64,000 nt of DNA from a marine gamma proteobacterium HTCC2080 (GTDB lineage Bacteria; Pseudomonadota; Gammaproteobacteria; Pseudomonadales; Halieaceae), in contig AAVV01000004.1 in NCBI GenBank assembly GCA_000169115.1, positions 124,001 through 188,000 on the forward strand, given 5' to 3'. The notes under the pieces are model-generated. The model was not told where the DNA came from. It worked only from the letters and a program-made list of their open reading frames with translations, and made no database searches. The translations under genes and the position numbers were made by a program. This document shows, one piece after another, positions 50,068-57,714 of this stretch; the stretch's first letter is position 1, and each line of letters opens with the position of its first letter.

Positions 50068-51498
50068 TTGTCTCAGGCAACAAATCGATCATCCAACTTG
50101 AACAACCCAATACAAAAAAAATTGCGAGAGCTACCCGCCGTTGGCGACATCCTCGAGTCCATGCCGCGTGAAATCGAACTCTGGGGTCATGCCCAGGTAG
50201 CACAGGCTGTGCGCAAGCGGCTATCACAATTGCGCCAGGAAATAAGCCTAGGAGACTCACCGCCGATTGATCTGGAAGAAATAAAGCAGTCTGTTGTCGA
50301 AGAGGTGGCCTCCGCCCATGACGCTACACTGGTCTCCGTTTTTAACCTGACCGGCATTGTTTTGCACAGCAACCTAGGCCGAGCGCAACTGTGCGAATCA
50401 GCAATTCAGGCGGTCAAAGACGTTGCAAGCAACGCGAGCAATCTTGAGTTTGATTTAGCGAGCGGTAAACGCGGTGATCGAGAAGCCCATGTCGAAGCCA
50501 TGATCTGCGAGCAAACAGGAGCCGAGGCCGCCACCGCGGTCAATAACAACGCCGCCGCCGTGCTACTCGCCCTCAACACTTTGGCCATGGACCGTAAAGT
50601 CACCGTGTCACGAGGAGAGCTGGTCGAGATTGGTGGCTCTTTTCGTATCCCCGACATTATGAGCCGCGCGGGCTGCTCACTCACCGAGGTAGGCACCACC
50701 AACCGCACCCACCTCAAAGACTATGCCGAGGGTGTGGATACCGATACGGCACTACTCATGAAAGTTCATACCAGTAACTATCGGATTGAGGGCTATACGA
50801 CCAACCCTACCGAATCCGAGCTGGCAAAGCTGGCCTCAGGCCTTGGCATCCCCTTCATGATCGATTTGGGCAGTGGCAACTTGCTTGATTTCACGGCGAT
50901 GAATCTACCGAAAGAACCCACCGTTGCCGACGCCATCGGTCATGGCGCCGACCTCGTAACTTTTAGTGGCGACAAATTGCTTGGAGGACCTCAGGCCGGG
51001 CTGATCGCCGGCCGGGCAGACCTGATAGCACAGATTAAATCTAACCCCTTAAAGCGAGCCCTCCGTCTGGATAAGATGACTCTGGCCGCACTGGCGGAAA
51101 CACTAAAGCTGTACAACCACCCGGAAAAGCTGCGCGAAAATTTGCCCACCTTGCGACTCATTACCCGGCCTAAGGCGGTTATTGAGAAACTTGCGACCTC
51201 ACTGCTGCCCGAATTTGCATCGGCGCTGGGGCCGCAGTATGCCATCAGTGTCGAGGACACACTGAGTCAGATTGGAAGCGGTTCCTTACCTGTCGAAACG
51301 CTGCCCAGCTCGGCACTGAGAATCGAGGTCGTTTCTGGCGCCGACAGCGATTTGCGTGCCTTGGGCACAGCATTTCGGCAATTGCCTCAGCCAGTGATCG
51401 GTCGCATTCATCAAAGCGCCCTATGGTTCGATCTGCGCTGTTTAGAAGAGGATCAGAAGGCCCCATTAGTGCAACAGCTGGGCGAACTAAACCTTTGA
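50068..51498 (+). CDS. selA: L-seryl-tRNA(Sec) selenium transferase SelA
   Basis: A 476-aa PLP enzyme converting seryl-tRNA(Sec) to selenocysteinyl-tRNA(Sec) using selenophosphate. Landmarks are LRELPAVGDILES near the N-terminus, VFNLTGIVLHSNLGRAQLCE, VNNNAAAVLLALNTLA, SRGELVEIGGSFRIPDIM, LLMKVHTSNYRIEGYT, MIDLGSGNLLDF, and the PLP Lys303 in FSGDKLLGGPQAG. The start is TTG at 50068, and its N-terminus aligns in length with known SelA. It is the first gene of the selA-selB-tRNA-Sec locus. selB starts within its last codons (TTGA overlap). A selD gene is not in the window and must be elsewhere. Confidence 0.97.
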   Translation: MSQATNRSSNLNNPIQKKLRELPAVGDILESMPREIELWGHAQVAQAVRKRLSQLRQEISLGDSPPIDLEEIKQSVVEEVASAHDATLVSVFNLTGIVLHSNLGRAQLCESAIQAVKDVASNASNLEFDLASGKRGDREAHVEAMICEQTGAEAATAVNNNAAAVLLALNTLAMDRKVTVSRGELVEIGGSFRIPDIMSRAGCSLTEVGTTNRTHLKDYAEGVDTDTALLMKVHTSNYRIEGYTTNPTESELAKLASGLGIPFMIDLGSGNLLDFTAMNLPKEPTVADAIGHGADLVTFSGDKLLGGPQAGLIAGRADLIAQIKSNPLKRALRLDKMTLAALAETLKLYNHPEKLRENLPTLRLITRPKAVIEKLATSLLPEFASALGPQYAISVEDTLSQIGSGSLPVETLPSSALRIEVVSGADSDLRALGTAFRQLPQPVIGRIHQSALWFDLRCLEEDQKAPLVQQLGELNL

Positions 51499-53420
51499 TC
51501 ATTGCAACTGCAGGACATGTCGATCACGGTAAGACCTCGCTCATCCGAGCACTGACCGGGGTAGAGACCGATACCCTTGCGGAGGAAATCGAACGCGGGC
51601 TATCAATTAATTTGGGTTACGCCTTTCTTCCTCAAGGGTCCGATGAAACTCTGGGGTTTATCGACGTCCCCGGCCACAGAAAGTTTATCAACACCATGAT
51701 TTCGGGTATCAGCGGCGTCGATATGGGGCTTCTGGTAGTAGCCGCTGATGATGGGCCTATGCCCCAAACCCTGGAGCATATTGATGTCCTCGAAATTTTG
51801 GGTGTAGAGAGCGTATGCGTTGTGATCAATAAGATCGATCGGGTAGAGGCATCTCGAGTTCATGCTGTGTTGGAGCAAGTTCAAGCGCTGATTGAACCAC
51901 GACGCTGGCCGGAACACCGATCCTTTAACGTCTCTAGCCTGTCCGGCGAGGGTTTGGATTCTCTTAAAAACCATTTGATTAGCGCTGCAAAAGACCACAA
52001 AAAGCAGCGCAGTGCCGGAGACTTTCGTCTCTCTATAGATCGAAGCTTTAACATAAACGGGGTCGGGCTTATCGCCACAGGAACAGCGAGTGCCGGTGAG
52101 GTGCACAGGGGCGACCTACTTGACCTGCTACCGGGAGGCCAATCCGTTCGGGTTCGGCACTTAAGAGCAAACGGTAAAGAGGTAGATCATGCACTGGCCG
52201 GCCAGCGCGTAGCCTTAGCCTTAGCCGGTAAAATCTCCCTGAAACAGATAGCGCGCGGCGACTGGCTGGTAGCGCCCAAGTCACTGCCTCCTGCGTCGCG
52301 CCTTGACGTAGAGGTAACGTTGCTGACCAGCGCCCCCTTTGCATTGAAGCATATGGCACCGGTTAAACTTTATATTGGGGCCAAACGCCTGGCAGCACGT
52401 CTAGCTCACATCGATACACCAGATGGCCCTTTAAAACCGGGCGAATCCTGTCTTGCACAGCTGATCGTCGAGTGCTCGATTAGTAGCACATGGGGAGAAC
52501 CTTTCTTAATTCAAGATCATGCAGAAGCTCGAGTTCTTGGCGGTGGCAGGGTACTGGACCCAGAAGGACCAAAATTTGGCAAGTCCCGCAACGATCGCTT
52601 GTATTGGCTGCGCGCTTTGCAATTACCTGATGCAACATCTGCACTATCTCGGTTGCTCGAAGCCAAGAACACGATAAACCTCTCACGATTTTGGGCGATC
52701 CGTAACCATCAGTCAGTACCAAAAAATCTATTTCCAAACGATGATATTCGCCAATTTCAACGCGGGGACACCCTGTGGGCTGTTGCAGAAACACAATGGC
52801 AATTCGTTATTCAATGGCTGGAGAAATACGTCGGCCACTGGCACCGGGAGCGGCCCAAGTTGCCGGGGGTGAAAATACCATCCCTACAAAAAGAAGCGGC
52901 TAAGCGCTTCGACTCAGCGCTGGGACACGCCGCGCTAGATGTTTTAATACGATCGGGCGGCCTAGTATTAAAAGAGGGTTATGTCAGCCGAAAAGGCTTT
53001 CAACCGGCTAAATCTCAAGAGGCTCTACAACATTGGAGGAAGCTCAAAGACCGGTTGGAGCAAAGCGGCACAGCCCTGCCACTGCTGGCAGATTTGTTGG
53101 CACTCGCGGAAGTACCAGAGCAGTTGTCTAAAGAAGTTCTGCGCCTAGGTATGAGCAGCGGTGAGCTGCATGAACTTAACCGTAACCGTTACGCCCTACC
53201 CTCACAGCTTCTGCATTATTACGGAAGTCTGGCACATGCTTGTGACCAGGGAGAGACCCTATCCGTAGCTGTCTTAAAAAAGAAATTTGGGGCGGGCCGT
53301 AATCTAACCGTTGAAATCCTTGAGCACTTCGATCGCTTGCACCTGACCCGTAGGGAGGGGAACGTGCGTGTGCTTTTGCCCCGTGCTAATGTGCATCGCG
53401 CGCTGGGTATTGAGCCTTAA
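51495..53420 (+). CDS. selB: Selenocysteine-specific translation elongation factor SelB
   Basis: A ~641-aa GTPase that delivers Sec-tRNA(Sec) to UGA codons marked by SECIS hairpins. The N-terminus (TTG start at 51495, MIIATAGHVDHGKTSLIRAL) matches known SelB exactly in pattern. G-motifs are GHVDHGKT, DVPGHRKF and NKID, and EEIERGLSINLGYAFL is the switch region. The C-terminal part (about residues 380-640) carries winged-helix modules binding SECIS RNA. The start overlaps the selA stop by TTGA, implying coupled translation. The open frame continues upstream to 51423, but that segment is the out-of-frame shadow of selA. tRNA-Sec follows 7 bp after the stop. Confidence 0.97.
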   Translation: MIIATAGHVDHGKTSLIRALTGVETDTLAEEIERGLSINLGYAFLPQGSDETLGFIDVPGHRKFINTMISGISGVDMGLLVVAADDGPMPQTLEHIDVLEILGVESVCVVINKIDRVEASRVHAVLEQVQALIEPRRWPEHRSFNVSSLSGEGLDSLKNHLISAAKDHKKQRSAGDFRLSIDRSFNINGVGLIATGTASAGEVHRGDLLDLLPGGQSVRVRHLRANGKEVDHALAGQRVALALAGKISLKQIARGDWLVAPKSLPPASRLDVEVTLLTSAPFALKHMAPVKLYIGAKRLAARLAHIDTPDGPLKPGESCLAQLIVECSISSTWGEPFLIQDHAEARVLGGGRVLDPEGPKFGKSRNDRLYWLRALQLPDATSALSRLLEAKNTINLSRFWAIRNHQSVPKNLFPNDDIRQFQRGDTLWAVAETQWQFVIQWLEKYVGHWHRERPKLPGVKIPSLQKEAAKRFDSALGHAALDVLIRSGGLVLKEGYVSRKGFQPAKSQEALQHWRKLKDRLEQSGTALPLLADLLALAEVPEQLSKEVLRLGMSSGELHELNRNRYALPSQLLHYYGSLAHACDQGETLSVAVLKKKFGAGRNLTVEILEHFDRLHLTRREGNVRVLLPRANVHRALGIEP

Positions 53421-53427
53421 AAGTACT

Positions 53428-53521
53428 GGAAGAGCGACGCCCCCGGTGGGGTGCCTGGTCTTCAAAACCAGTGAGGGGCTGAGAAAGCGCCTGGTGGGTT
53501 CGACTCCTACCTCTTCCGCCA
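53428..53521 (+). tRNA. selC: tRNA-Sec (UCA anticodon)
   Basis: Full 94-nt tRNA-Sec including an encoded GCCA end. Acceptor GGAAGAG pairs with CTCTTCC. A long 6-bp D stem (CGCCCC/GGGGTG) has a 4-nt loop. The anticodon arm CTGGT-CTTCAAA-ACCAG carries TCA, which reads UGA. A long variable arm and T-arm (TTCGACT) follow. Extra-long D stem, long variable arm and UCA anticodon are diagnostic of tRNA-Sec. At the eighth acceptor position C faces C, whereas E. coli has a pair. It lies 7 bp after selB. Confidence 0.97.
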
Positions 53522-53828: not shown

Positions 53829-54239
53829 ATGTTGAATGCGTATAACGTCTGCGAATTTATTCTGTATTTTTTTGCGGCAGCTGTTTTGATCCACACGTTA
53901 TCAGTTCTTCAGATGGGCGGCGCTGAAGTTGTTACAGCATCGCCTGACGCCTATCAAATGGCTCAAGACCTGGTGCACTATCGGGCGGCTTTCACAGGCG
54001 GGCTCATAGTACTTTACCTATATCTTAGGATTTCATTGCGACCGGTAGCGAAAGTCCTCGCCATCGTTGCAGTGATTTCGTGGATTGCTTTTATCGAGGA
54101 CTATCTTGCTCTCGACAACATCTTTTATGTCGCCGATTCCATAACCGGGCTAACCATCCAAACGCTGCGCCCACTTTACCTCGTGAGCATCGTGTACATG
54201 TCTGTTGAAGCTTTCAGGCGGGAGAGTCGGCATGGCTGA
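53829..54239 (+). CDS. Small four-helix membrane protein, unknown function
   Basis: A 136-aa hydrophobic protein that I do not recognise. Four predicted helices begin at EFILYFFAAAVLIHTLSVL and end at LYLVSIVYMSVEAF. GGGAGG lies 8 nt upstream of the ATG. It overlaps the next gene by 8 bp, so the two are translated together and probably interact or function jointly. They lie between tRNA-Sec and the selenoprotein genes, but no direct selenium motif is visible. It could be a transporter subunit or a membrane scaffold. Confidence 0.7.
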   Translation: MLNAYNVCEFILYFFAAAVLIHTLSVLQMGGAEVVTASPDAYQMAQDLVHYRAAFTGGLIVLYLYLRISLRPVAKVLAIVAVISWIAFIEDYLALDNIFYVADSITGLTIQTLRPLYLVSIVYMSVEAFRRESRHG

Positions 54240-54738
54240 AAATAAATTTGACCAAAAACCGACGCTTTCTAAAGAGGAATTACAGGCATTACTAGAACCT
54301 CAGATCCTTAGCCTGTCTAATTTACAAGAGGCGCTTGGCGGCAAAACTCGGCTGTTTAAATTCTGCCTTATTGTGCTGACGACGCTCACTCTCGGCTATC
54401 TTATGATGTACAGCAGCGGCGTGCTGGATAAGTTTGTCTCTCACGGCTGGACAAAACACTACGGAGACTACCGAATCCATCAAATCCGCTTTGGGCTAGG
54501 ATTTTTGATGCTCGTTCTTTTTTACGTATGGGTTTTGTTAAAAAAGCCCCTAGGCACCATTCTCGCCTGTTTTACCGGCGTGCTTTGTTACTTTCTAATT
54601 TCAGGTACAGCGAGGCTCTTTGTCGTTTTGGACCCAGCCCAAGACACCTGGTTTATAACGGTTTACTTCTTTCTACAACTCTCTTTTGTTGGGCTTTTGT
54701 TGGTCATGATTCGGGAAGAAGGTCGCTCTAGCTGGTAG
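54232..54738 (+). CDS. Four-helix membrane protein, partner of the preceding gene
   Basis: A ~168-aa protein, N-terminal ~45 residues polar (MAENKFDQKPTLSKEELQAL), then four helices from FKFCLIVLTTLTLGYLMM to FITVYFFLQLSFVGLLLVMI. The ATG at 54232 has GGGAG 7 nt upstream, and it overlaps the upstream stop by 8 bp (ATGGCTGA); a frame extending to 54205 is less likely. No known domain is recognised. The pair appears to form one translational unit; its role is unknown. Confidence 0.7.
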   Translation: MAENKFDQKPTLSKEELQALLEPQILSLSNLQEALGGKTRLFKFCLIVLTTLTLGYLMMYSSGVLDKFVSHGWTKHYGDYRIHQIRFGLGFLMLVLFYVWVLLKKPLGTILACFTGVLCYFLISGTARLFVVLDPAQDTWFITVYFFLQLSFVGLLLVMIREEGRSSW

Positions 54739-54950: not shown

Positions 54951-55400
54951 ATGAGAAACATTGCACTTTATTTTTTGCTACTCATTCCGAGCTTTGTCCA
55001 AGCAGGCCATCATGAAGAGAGCGGAAACTCGGCTAATATCGCTACGGCTAAGGCCGGGTATGATGCCTTTAATGCTGGAGATATGGAGGCTTGGCGTGCC
55101 GTGCAAGCGGATGAAACCGTTTGGACAATTCAAGTTGGCCTACCCTACACCGGCACCTACATAGGACCGGCAGCAGTAGAGGCAGGCGTATTTGGACCTA
55201 TCGGAAAAATGTGGCCCGATTTCAAAGTTGACCCCATCAAATTTTATGAATCAGGTGACACCGTCTTCGTGCATGTTCACATGACGGCTGAGGGCCTTGA
55301 TACCGAATCGATCCACATGATCAAAATCAAAGAGGGCAAATATATCGCCTTTCAACCCTTCGATGATTCCGCTGCTATGTTGCAAGCTGCAAAACGTTAA
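54951..55400 (+). CDS. Secreted SnoaL/NTF2-like protein
   Basis: A 149-aa exported protein (signal peptide ending LIPSFVQAG) with an NTF2/SnoaL-type cone fold: IATAKAGYDAFNAGDMEAWR, DETVWTIQVGLPYTGTYIGP, AAVEAGVFGPIGKMWPDFKV and HVHMTAEGLDTESIHMIKIK. Such proteins can be isomerases, cyclases or ligand-binding proteins; substrate cannot be inferred. An AGGAAACAATT precedes the ATG. It stands between the membrane pair and the first selenoprotein, in the same direction, but with a 212-bp gap on its left, so cotranscription is uncertain. Confidence 0.85.
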   Translation: MRNIALYFLLLIPSFVQAGHHEESGNSANIATAKAGYDAFNAGDMEAWRAVQADETVWTIQVGLPYTGTYIGPAAVEAGVFGPIGKMWPDFKVDPIKFYESGDTVFVHVHMTAEGLDTESIHMIKIKEGKYIAFQPFDDSAAMLQAAKR

Positions 55401-55488: not shown

Positions 55489-56721
55489 ATGGAACGCGAT
55501 AACCTTGGTTTCGATGCCCCTGCACCTATCGGTCACCCGGTACGGGCTAGCATGCCTGAGGGGGCATACTCTGGCCCCGCTATTGGCGAGCACCTCCCTG
55601 ATTTTGAACTCCCCGACGCATTCGGCAGCACAATACGTTTCCATACAGATCGAGGTAACTCTAGAGCAGCATTGGTTTTTTATCGATCCGCGGTGTGGTG
55701 ACCTCCCTGCTGGACGCAGCTCGGGGAGCTGCGAGACGCTCACGCTAAGTTTGAAGCCCACGGCATCAAGCTCTACGCTGTGTCGTATGACGACACGAAA
55801 GCCCTACGGGAATTTGCAGAAGCACAGCTAATAAACTATCCCCTGTTATCTGATCAAGATTCCGTGGTCATCAAACAATATGGCATCTTAAATACGCTGG
55901 TTTCCAAAGACGATGCCTTTATCTACGGCATTCCGTACCCCGGAGTGTTCGTGTGCGATGAGGGCGGCCGCGTTGTTTCGAAATTCTTTCACGACTCCTA
56001 TAAAAAACGAGAAAGCCCAGAGACACTGATAGATGCAGCCCTGGGGCATATACAGATTGAAGACGATCTGCCCCAAACTTCTGGGGGGGAGTCAGGTATT
56101 GCGATCACAGCAGCAATACGAGGCGGCGATGGCAGTCTGCGCCAAGGCATCATCCGTCAGCTGATTGTCCGTTTTAGACTAAAAGATGGTCTGCATCTTT
56201 ACGGAGCGCCAGTTCCTTCAGGTCTTACAGCCACCAAGGTAACAATTCTTGGCCCTAATGGTTTACACACCCTGCCGACCAGATACCCGCCCACAACGCC
56301 GCTACATCACAAAACACTGGGCATTGACCTCCATGTTTGGAGTAACGAAGTAGATATCGTAGTGCCATTTTATCCGGCAGAAGATCTGGCAACCGAAGCT
56401 GAAGTACCTTCACAGCCGTTTGCCTCGATAGATTTCGAAGTCTGCTATCAAGCTTGCAATGAAGACGCGTGCCTACTTCCTCAAACCCAGCGCTTCTCTA
56501 TTGAACTACCGCTAGATGTAGTCGATGTGCCTGGCCTTTCGATACATCGGGGGCACGGTCAGCGCGAAAGCGACTATGACAGCACGCCGGCTATGCGCAG
56601 GCTCATTTGGCGAAAGATCCGATCGAACCCACTGCGACTGCTTAAGCTAGCTTGGAAAACCAGCCGACTTAAACGTCATGCAAAAAAGCATCAAGACAAA
56701 AAAAAGACCTTGGTTGAGTGA
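55489..56721 (+). CDS. Selenoprotein: Prx-like redoxin (U-P-P-C) fused to DsbD-alpha-like domain
   Basis: A 410-aa protein read through an in-frame UGA at 55699-55701 as selenocysteine (residue 71). The context is ALVFYRSAVW-U-PPCWTQLGEL, matching the Prx-like redoxin W-C-P-x-C site with Sec in place of the first Cys and C74 as resolving Cys. After the UGA the frame stays open to 56721 and continues the redoxin fold (GIKLYAVSYDDTKALREF, GIPYPGVFVCDEGGRVVSKF). The C-terminal half (about residues 210-350) contains FEVCYQACNEDACLLPQTQR, like the N-terminal (alpha) domain of DsbD, a thiol-redox module. A hairpin 13 nt after UGA is a SECIS candidate, and selA/selB/tRNA-Sec lie upstream. No signal peptide is seen; cytoplasmic or peripheral location is uncertain. 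A standard gene caller would split this gene. Confidence 0.9.
55715..55733 (+). promoter_or_regulatory. Candidate bacterial SECIS hairpin for the first selenoprotein
   Basis: CGCAGCTC-GGG-GAGCTGCG forms an 8-bp perfect stem with a 3-nt G loop, beginning 13 nt after the UGA at 55701. A G-rich apex at this distance is what E. coli-type SelB recognises. It lies within the coding frame. Confidence 0.7.
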
Positions 56722-56727
56722 CCAAGG
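56708..56727 (-). terminator. Terminator of the second selenoprotein gene
   Basis: On the minus strand CCTTGGT-CACTCA-ACCAAGG forms a 7-bp stem, followed by TC and eight T. It lies 41 bp past the stop of the leftward selenoprotein gene and overlaps the last codons and stop of the rightward one. Confidence 0.8.
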
Positions 56728-56768
56728 CCTTGGTTGGCTGGCTAGCCGTCGCGACGGCAAACGCAAAT

Positions 56769-57527
56769 CTAAGAATCGAAATTTGCTTGCATGGCGGCTA
56801 AGACCACGGACGGGTCGGACCGCCGCTGATAATCCTTCGACAAATCTATCCAAAGTACCCTGCCTTCTCGGTCCACTAAGAGCGTCGCAGGCACGGGTAA
56901 GGCCACCGATTCGTGGGTCGGGGGTGCAGAGTGAAAGCCTGTATTTCGTAAGCCAAAGGCATCTGTTACCTGCAACTGGACATCAGATAACATGCGCGCC
57001 TGTAATCCGTGAAGATGGCGCTCAGCGGCAATGTCTTCAGGTGAGTCTGTGCTGATCGTGATGACCCTCACATCGCGCTGCTCGAACTCTGCACGCAGTT
57101 CCTCGAGTCGACGTAACTCGCCGACACAGTAAGGTCACCAATGAGCTCTAAAAAATTTAATGAGCACCAAGTGCCCATTGAGGTCCTTTGACTCAAAGCG
57201 TTCACCTGCGTCATCCAAGGCTGAAAAGCTTGGAATCACATCACCGACAGCAATAGCCTTGTCAGATTCAACGCTTTGAGAACTTACGGCGATGGTAAAA
57301 CTAAAAAATACGCCAATCAGTATCGCGCCTGCTGGAGGAACGCCACCAATCCAGCCGGTGCCTTTGATATAAGCCAAGACACCCAGGCTAGCCGCCGCAA
57401 GAAAAGCCACGACAAACCCCGTTCGATCCTCAGGGAGGTTCACCTGGCGAACAAAGTAGAACCACAGCACTGTAGTGCCAACCGCAAGCGCAAACGCGGC
57501 AATGCCAAATTTAGTCCCTACCCTCAC
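56769..57527 (-). CDS. Membrane-anchored selenoprotein, thioredoxin/Prx-like (W-U-P-Y-C)
   Basis: A 252-aa protein with an in-frame UGA at 57135-57137 as selenocysteine (residue 131). The core reads LIKFFRAHW-U-PYCVGELRRL, the Prx-like W-C-P-Y-C motif with Sec replacing the first Cys. Three predicted helices precede it: KFGIAAFALAVGTTVLWFY, GFVVAFLAAASLGVLAYI and AGAILIGVFFSFTIAVSS. The redoxin follows (GDVIPSFSALDDAGERFESK, VITISTDSPEDIAAERHLHG, PVPATLLVDREGRVLWIDL). The GTG start at 57527 has a strong GGAGG 7 nt upstream. After the UGA the frame stays open to 56769. It is convergent with the first selenoprotein; a terminator separates them. A hairpin 14 nt after UGA is a SECIS candidate. 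It is probably a periplasm-facing or cytoplasm-facing thiol oxidoreductase; topology is not decided by sequence. Confidence 0.9.
57104..57120 (-). promoter_or_regulatory. Candidate bacterial SECIS hairpin for the second selenoprotein
   Basis: On the coding (minus) strand CGAGT-TACGTCG-ACTCG forms a 5-bp stem with a 7-nt loop, beginning 14 nt after the UGA. The distance equals that of the first candidate within one nucleotide. Stem and loop are weaker, so confidence is lower. Confidence 0.55.
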
Positions 57528-57714
57528 TTTGTGTCCTCCGCGCACTGCTGCTTGTGAACCGTACATAAAAATGGACTTCAAGCCAAGGCTGCAAAACAGC
57601 CTCGTCAGATCAGCAGACCTGAACACACATCAACAACAAGGCCATGACCATCAATGCAAAGATGGCTTCCTCAAAAGCGAGGTGGTTTCCTGGGGTCGGG
57701 CACCTGTATAACGG

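Follow-up and report, generated by a model that had tools for sequence, protein, structure and literature searches.

A UGA-interrupted gene of a marine gammaproteobacterium that very probably encodes a selenocysteine-containing redoxin joined to a DsbD-alpha-like domain

How should a bacterial gene be read when a single TGA codon divides its frame, and what might the protein do if that codon is decoded as selenocysteine (Sec)? This question is raised by a stretch of 64,000 nucleotides (the window) from marine gamma proteobacterium HTCC2080 (contig AAVV01000004.1, positions 124,001 to 188,000), in which an earlier note made from the sequence alone had described two segments in the same frame parted only by a TGA, and had proposed a selenoprotein that combines a peroxiredoxin (Prx)-like redoxin carrying a U-P-P-C site with a DsbD-alpha-like domain. 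Our reading of the frame agrees with this description and places the TGA at residue 71. On comparative grounds we conclude that the gene almost certainly encodes a real selenoprotein, with Sec insertion in the cell being presumed. The gene and its codon are as follows.

55489 to 56721, + strand: predicted selenoprotein gene (410 amino acids, Sec at residue 71; ATG at 55489, stop TGA at 56719-56721)
55699 to 55701, + strand: TGA predicted to be decoded as Sec, giving U71 of W-U-P-P-C, with C74 as its partner in the redox pair

Between the ATG and the stop codon this is the only internal TGA (context RSAVW-U-PPC, VWUPPCW), a TAG lies in the same frame two codons 5' of the ATG, and the window holds zero N bases. 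A scan of contigs yielded 26 loci with relatives, mostly titled as Halieaceae and other marine gammaproteobacteria, with Deltaproteobacteria, Myxococcales/Myxococcota and unclassified bacteria among the other titles and with the isolate Marine gamma proteobacterium HTCC2143 (L017) included. We aligned the window protein with 18 of these relatives, setting aside L004 (a frameshift), L016, L027 and L028 (contig ends), L015 (an N), and L013, L019 and L020 (for no special reason). The UGA is in frame with coding conservation on both sides, and the protein beyond it is conserved up to its C-terminus (50-71% identity to the window protein), with invariant residues continuing as far as P381. When the window gene is compared with seven relatives, most differences after the TGA fall in third codon positions; with L005, for example, there are 97, 69 and 192 differences at codon positions 1, 2 and 3, respectively, over 335 codons. 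Across the 19 aligned members, Cys or Sec is invariant at four positions only, namely U71, C74, C323 and C328.

After duplicates were removed by identical flanking DNA and candidates were filtered with the pattern [FY]RSxxW[UC]PPC, 51 distinct genes remained, the window's own counted. All 51 carry TGA at the Sec site, where Cys, TAA or TAG would have shown. Two matches had been dropped, one an unrelated motif match on the minus strand of L015 (with TAA) and the other a different selenoprotein on L029. More divergent members also retain the codon: L046 (1474-2712, 40% identity) has a UGA in W-U-P-P-C-M, the distant L077 (32% identity), which falls outside the 51, has a TGA in W-U-P-Y-C and a DsbD_N-like C-terminus, and genome G317 holds three family matches with one TGA inside each. 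In a family-level genome scan, matches were found in 56 of 140 genomes, and 18 of these exceeded 300 bits; in the remaining 38 the match ends by profile position 213, which corresponds to the redoxin half. Matches occurred in 3 of 341 genomes in an order scan, in 26 of 282 genomes from the phylum of a Myxococcales genome, and in 2 of 247 genomes from the phylum of L011's genome. A single-protein scan of 299 genomes of the window's phylum at E<=1e-30 returned the window's own copy only. Searches of plasmids by tblastn with P0001 and L077 as queries gave 0 records covering at least 80% of the query, and among viral contigs 12 stretches fit a pattern, with zero relatives among them.

An open reading frame called mechanically from GTG 55780 to 56721 makes it conceivable that the TGA is a true stop codon or a sequencing error, and that the downstream part is a separate or decayed gene. 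We consider this exceedingly improbable, given that the TGA recurs throughout the 51 genes from many assemblies (with Gammaproteobacteria, Deltaproteobacteria and Myxococcota among the titles), that a single Pfam domain (AhpC-TSA) spans the codon, and that the third-position bias persists beyond it. Frame decay and an error in the TGA codon, which the earlier note had named among the outcomes that would refute its proposal, are rejected on the grounds of the same conservation, codon count and positional bias.

The selenoprotein interpretation also draws on genes that are encoded a short distance upstream.

50068 to 51498, + strand: selA, L-seryl-tRNA(Sec) selenium transferase (TIGR00474 over cut-off)
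51423 to 53420, + strand: selB, Sec-specific elongation factor (TIGR00475 over cut-off)
53427 to 53520, + strand: tRNA-Sec, anticodon TCA (RF01852, 69.7 bits; ARAGORN)

These three genes are consecutive on one strand and lie no more than 5.5 kb upstream of the selenoprotein gene. Since selD is located elsewhere in this genome (99.44% complete) with a score of 411.8 bits against a cut-off of 125, SelA, SelB, tRNA-Sec and SelD are all present in one genome. More broadly, of the 25 locus-holding genomes searched (the window's own counted, L017 and L028 left out), 21 have a tRNA-Sec that exceeds the family cut-off, and in a strict control 5 of 14 known genomes had the family over its cut-off. Within the genus, gene presence tracks tRNA-Sec. 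Among 57 genus genomes, the gene occurs in 12 of the 21 with a tRNA-Sec hit of at least 60 bits versus 1 of the 36 others (Fisher p 4e-6), and the tool's own cut-off gives 12 of 27 versus 1 of 30 (p 3e-4), with neither test corrected for relatedness. The hits of the six extra genomes, near 48.7 bits, are taken to be other tRNAs because the window's genome has a 49-bit hit besides the true one. Four genus genomes (G000, G381, G410 and G414) carry tRNA-Sec and the gene on one contig, on the same strand and less than 6 kb apart, while the other eight genus genomes with both have them on different contigs and hence are uninformative on linkage.

Insertion of Sec in bacteria would also call for a Sec insertion sequence (SECIS), and a candidate is present immediately after the UGA.

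55715 to 55733, + strand: putative bacterial SECIS hairpin (8-pair stem CGCAGCTC/GAGCTGCG, loop GGG, 13 bases from the UGA to the stem)

A G within a small apical loop is a feature of bacterial SECIS elements (PMC1088965). In the present family, the G is the first loop base, or is the second base in most rows that lack the innermost pair, and the stem-loop stands just 3' of the UGA. Stem cells are paired at a frequency of 95.1% in 48 distinct sequences, as opposed to 21.6-47.1% when the stem is slid by 1-3 columns. Codon usage points in the same direction. Thr76 is encoded by ACG in 50 of 51 genes and Glu80 by GAG in 51 of 51, whereas these codons account for 35% and 58%, respectively, elsewhere in these genes. 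Moreover, the top 9-column window of codon conservation gene-wide covers residues 73-82, directly after U71 (46 of the 51 genes and 126 columns scored; p 7e-5 by a rank test in which columns and sequences are non-independent). The hairpin sub-region, which was picked after folds had been seen, exceeds synonymous shuffles in stability, with a mean z of -2.4 across 50 sequences and p<0.05 in 29 of these (L015, with its N, was excluded from the stability and loop analyses). RNAalifold gives a weak consensus for the region after the UGA (-4.68 kcal/mol, covariation term -0.33).

Several observations weigh against this interpretation. Covariation in the hairpin is weak, with one pair altered on both sides, in three sequences, a result equalled by 384 of 500 shuffles, and the covariation score itself is attained by 35 of 500 shuffles. 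The full 39 bases after the UGA are unremarkable relative to synonymous shuffles (mean z -0.70). Four of the 25 locus-holding genomes, whose completeness is not told, are without a tRNA-Sec over the cut-off, as is G398 (83% complete), a genus genome that does have the gene, and the gene is missing from 9 of the 21 tRNA-Sec-positive genus genomes. Finally, homologues with a Cys aligned at residue 71, which the earlier note had proposed to look for and which usually (not necessarily) support a new selenoprotein, do not appear among the sequences: there were none in the 51 distinct genes from the searched part of the tree, among the candidates scored per genome, and no two-domain Cys form among the matches listed in profile scans with limits of E 1e-25 to 1e-50. 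We balance these points against the Sec genes nearby, the uniform TGA and the combined codon and hairpin data, which together bear out the proposal of a selenoprotein. As judged from sequence, the gene, its recoding context, both domains and the Cys pairs are established.

What, then, might the Sec residue do? The domain in which it resides is as follows.

55582 to 55977, + strand: AhpC-TSA/redoxin domain, residues 32-163 (Pfam PF00578, E 7e-29; Foldseek matches to peroxiredoxins and ResA)

The best 50 Foldseek matches in the PDB to the full AlphaFold model (mean predicted local distance difference test score, pLDDT, 80.5) are all redoxin-fold proteins, most of them peroxiredoxins and with ResA also represented. 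Both searches substantiate a Prx-like redoxin with U-P-P-C, and AhpC-TSA scores over its cut-off in a protein with UxxC, as in Prx-like selenoproteins of PF00578. A true peroxiredoxin was considered as a candidate and rejected on comparison with 2cx3, in which we take the relevant residues to be the peroxidatic Cys, a Ser three positions before it and a Pro, with Thr taking the place of this Ser in the usual motif. In the alignment, U71 stands opposite the Ser, C74 opposite the peroxidatic Cys and S67 opposite the Pro, such that the peroxidatic PxxxTxxC (or TxxU) site is absent and SxxxUxxC occupies the aligned place. Because of this arrangement we interpret the site as thioredoxin-like and not as peroxidatic, and the ‘Prx’ label is to be taken as a description of the fold that does not imply peroxidase activity.

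These same data bear on the possibility that the protein is a peroxidase in which U71 or C74 would reduce hydroperoxides, with C323/C328 serving as the resolving pair. The top Pfam hit and the predominance of peroxiredoxins among the fold matches are in its favour, whereas the missing PxxxTxxC site and the positions of U71, C74 and S67 relative to 2cx3 speak against it. Furthermore, the UXXC site of Prx-like selenoproteins has been called thioredoxin-like (PMC1088965), and the Sec form of the peroxiredoxin motif is given as TxxU (PMC13188914). On this evidence we judge a peroxidase to be unlikely.

Because redoxin folds fill the matches to the full model, the C-terminal part was modelled apart (mean pLDDT 87.9), revealing the second module.

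56155 to 56502, + strand: DsbD_N (DsbD-alpha-like) domain, residues 223-338 (PF11412, E 6.3e-8)
56455 to 56472, + strand: invariant Cys pair C323/C328 (C-x4-C), aligned with E. coli DsbD C103/C109
56584 to 56718, + strand: C-terminal helical, basic stretch, residues 366-410 (R371, L372, R375, K376 and P381 invariant)

The window protein scores 33.1 bits for PF11412 (cut-off 25), and DsbD_N is detected at E<=0.001 in all 19 aligned members. Among PDB matches to the C-terminal model at E<=0.001, 14 of 15 are N-domains of DsbD or that of ScsB, with TM-scores by target of 0.37-0.65. Both HMMER and hhalign pair C323/C328 with C103/C109 of E. coli DsbD (C122/C128 of the precursor), and the pair lies towards the C-terminus of the domain, as do the catalytic Cys residues of DsbD_N. 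These results uphold the domain proposed earlier, and a DsbD-alpha-like assignment is very probable on the strength of the sequence profile and the predicted fold. The C-terminal block FEVCYQACNEDACLLPQ to which attention had been drawn is indeed present (residues 316-332), although of its three Cys residues only C323 and C328 are conserved and C319 is not. A full DsbD protein was rejected as a candidate: Pfam finds neither the eight-helix membrane domain nor the C-terminal thioredoxin domain, and no 19-residue stretch exceeds a mean hydropathy of 0.82.

It is important to note that the match to E. coli DsbD is weak in sequence (E 0.7 in a PDB search; probability 37.5% and E 0.00035 by hhalign), which counts against the assignment; the domain call depends on Pfam and the predicted fold. 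This remote similarity also lends some credence to a different view of the module, namely that it is structural or serves in docking (for example through immunoglobulin (Ig)-like dimerisation or target binding) in a protein that would still be a selenoprotein, and whose redoxin would be recycled directly by thioredoxin. The cap loop, which is central to partner binding (PMC7347389), is likewise not clearly retained: hhalign pairs the F-Y of the E. coli D-E-F-Y-G with F294-Y295 past a five-column gap, D-E and G are unmatched, and F294-Y295 vary among members and lie within a predicted strand. However, a structural role would not need C323/C328, which are unchanged in all 19 members and also occur in L046 and L077. 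We therefore regard a purely structural or docking module as somewhat unlikely, if less so than a peroxidase.

The explanation that we prefer as a whole, and consider probable, is a cytosolic selenoprotein with intramolecular electron transfer. SelB and tRNA-Sec from the upstream genes would decode the UGA as Sec, aided by the hairpin that begins 13 bases later. The redoxin would then use its U71-x-x-C74 pair in thioredoxin style to reduce or exchange disulfides (or perhaps to reduce a peroxide), and the DsbD-alpha-like domain would most likely pass electrons from C323/C328 to the oxidised U71-C74 within the chain. This last step, the internal relay, is a tentative proposal to which we give slightly less than an even chance. 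In E. coli, DsbD-alpha receives electrons from cytoplasmic thioredoxin via the rest of DsbD and conveys them to partners with a thioredoxin fold, among them CcmG in the periplasm, and crystal complexes of DsbD-alpha with CcmG are known (PMC7347389). Since DsbD-alpha supplies electrons to thioredoxin-fold partners, the fusion would place a donor-type module in one chain with a module of the acceptor type. The window protein lacks a strongly hydrophobic segment, in contrast to DsbD, which has a signal peptide, and for this reason a cytosolic location and reduction by thioredoxin are proposed. The likely role is predicted to be that of a cytosolic thiol/selenol-disulfide oxidoreductase, for which we infer the direction of electron flow, the substrate and thioredoxin as electron donor. 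A bolder version would have Sec be obligatory in the family and the chain act as a cytosolic relay in which DsbD-alpha, without a membrane step or the periplasm, reduces an Se-S bond in its fused redoxin; we offer this as a speculation that is probably not correct in full.

Is such a protein new? The earlier note did not know the two-domain form as described, a statement now outdated. A 2021 paper on Global Ocean Sampling reports a Prx-like (U/CxxC) protein fused with Pfam11412 (PMC9402790, Figure 2D), and because this is the accession matched here, the two-domain architecture is already in print. Shared features are Prx-like and Pfam11412 domains in one chain, a U/C-x-x-C site, an origin in marine metagenomes and extra conserved Cys residues. 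In contrast, Pfam11412 is termed ‘DsbC’ there and is treated in one sentence and a figure, the excerpted passages give no genome, SECIS, linkage to Sec machinery or mapping of the Cys residues to DsbD-alpha, and the notation U/CxxC implies a Cys form whereas our searches returned Sec forms only. What is added beyond those passages are the genomes, the linkage to Sec machinery, the SECIS evidence, the all-Sec distribution as searched and the Cys mapping. The metagenomic fusion thus gains a genomic home with recoding genes adjacent, and its mechanism can be put to the test; the additional Cys residues ‘without clear function’ in 2021 (PMC9402790) can be mapped to the DsbD-alpha catalytic pair, and a donor fused to its acceptor makes their partnership directly testable. 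In addition, search methods based on Sec/Cys pairs would overlook a selenoprotein family whose Cys forms are rare or absent.

In the library searched, PMC9402790 is the sole paper to mention both selenoprotein and pfam11412, and no NCBIfam model exceeds its cut-off for the 410-amino-acid protein. A 2026 inventory of 119 families includes PF00578 with UxxC, and its excerpts show no such fusion (PMC13188914); nor is a DsbD_N fusion mentioned by name in the portions available of PMC2398784, PMC1088965, PMC9312934 and PMC12013277. Among known systems, the Prx-like thiol:disulfide oxidoreductase selenoproteins (PF00578, UxxC) share the redoxin fold and the thioredoxin-like UxxC (PMC13188914, PMC1088965), and unlike the present protein they are listed without a DsbD_N domain in PMC13188914. 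E. coli DsbD-alpha (nDsbD) with CcmG shares the Ig-like domain and two catalytic Cys residues that reduce thioredoxin-fold partners (PMC7347389), whereas the window protein has no hydrophobic segment and carries its redoxin, with Sec, in the same chain. Unknown_3 likewise joins a UxxC redoxin to a domain that contains Cys residues, and it may be a separate family, being described as having three conserved Cys residues with CxxC (PMC2398784) rather than the two in CxxxxC seen here. TsoB (NF045694), which is rhodanese/DsbD fusion-like, is also a selenoprotein with a DsbD-like part by name, and differs in having a rhodanese, two Sec residues (UxxxxU) and no redoxin.

Other features of the neighbourhood deserve brief mention. 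Between tRNA-Sec and the selenoprotein gene are two overlapping open reading frames (53829-54239 and 54205-54738) that have no Pfam or NCBIfam match at E<=0.001, followed by a SnoaL-like protein (54951-55400). Pfam searches around the gene, covering 6 of 10 listed open reading frames in L017 and 4 of 14 in L026, gave no shared pathway. Promoter-like sites show no excess over shuffles, and the 6 terminator-like sites found (4.3 expected from shuffles) are no clear excess. A terminator-like inverted repeat oriented for the - strand (56704-56731) overlaps the point at which the selenoprotein gene on the + strand ends, its stop codon included. Convergent with that gene is a second UGA-interrupted gene on the - strand (56769-57626), predicted to encode a redoxin with W-U-P-Y-C (U164, TGA 57135-57137; AhpC-TSA, E 4e-26) that is preceded by hydrophobic stretches, as judged by eye from the translation. 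Of the 24 related loci that were scanned, 8 (L004-L010 and L025) have the convergent pair as well, with the second protein having W-U-S-Y-C rather than W-U-P-Y-C in L006 (near 4357, - strand), and on L029 another UGA gene with F-W-U-P-P-C (near 2286, + strand) lies ~1.4 kb upstream of the UGA of the family gene.
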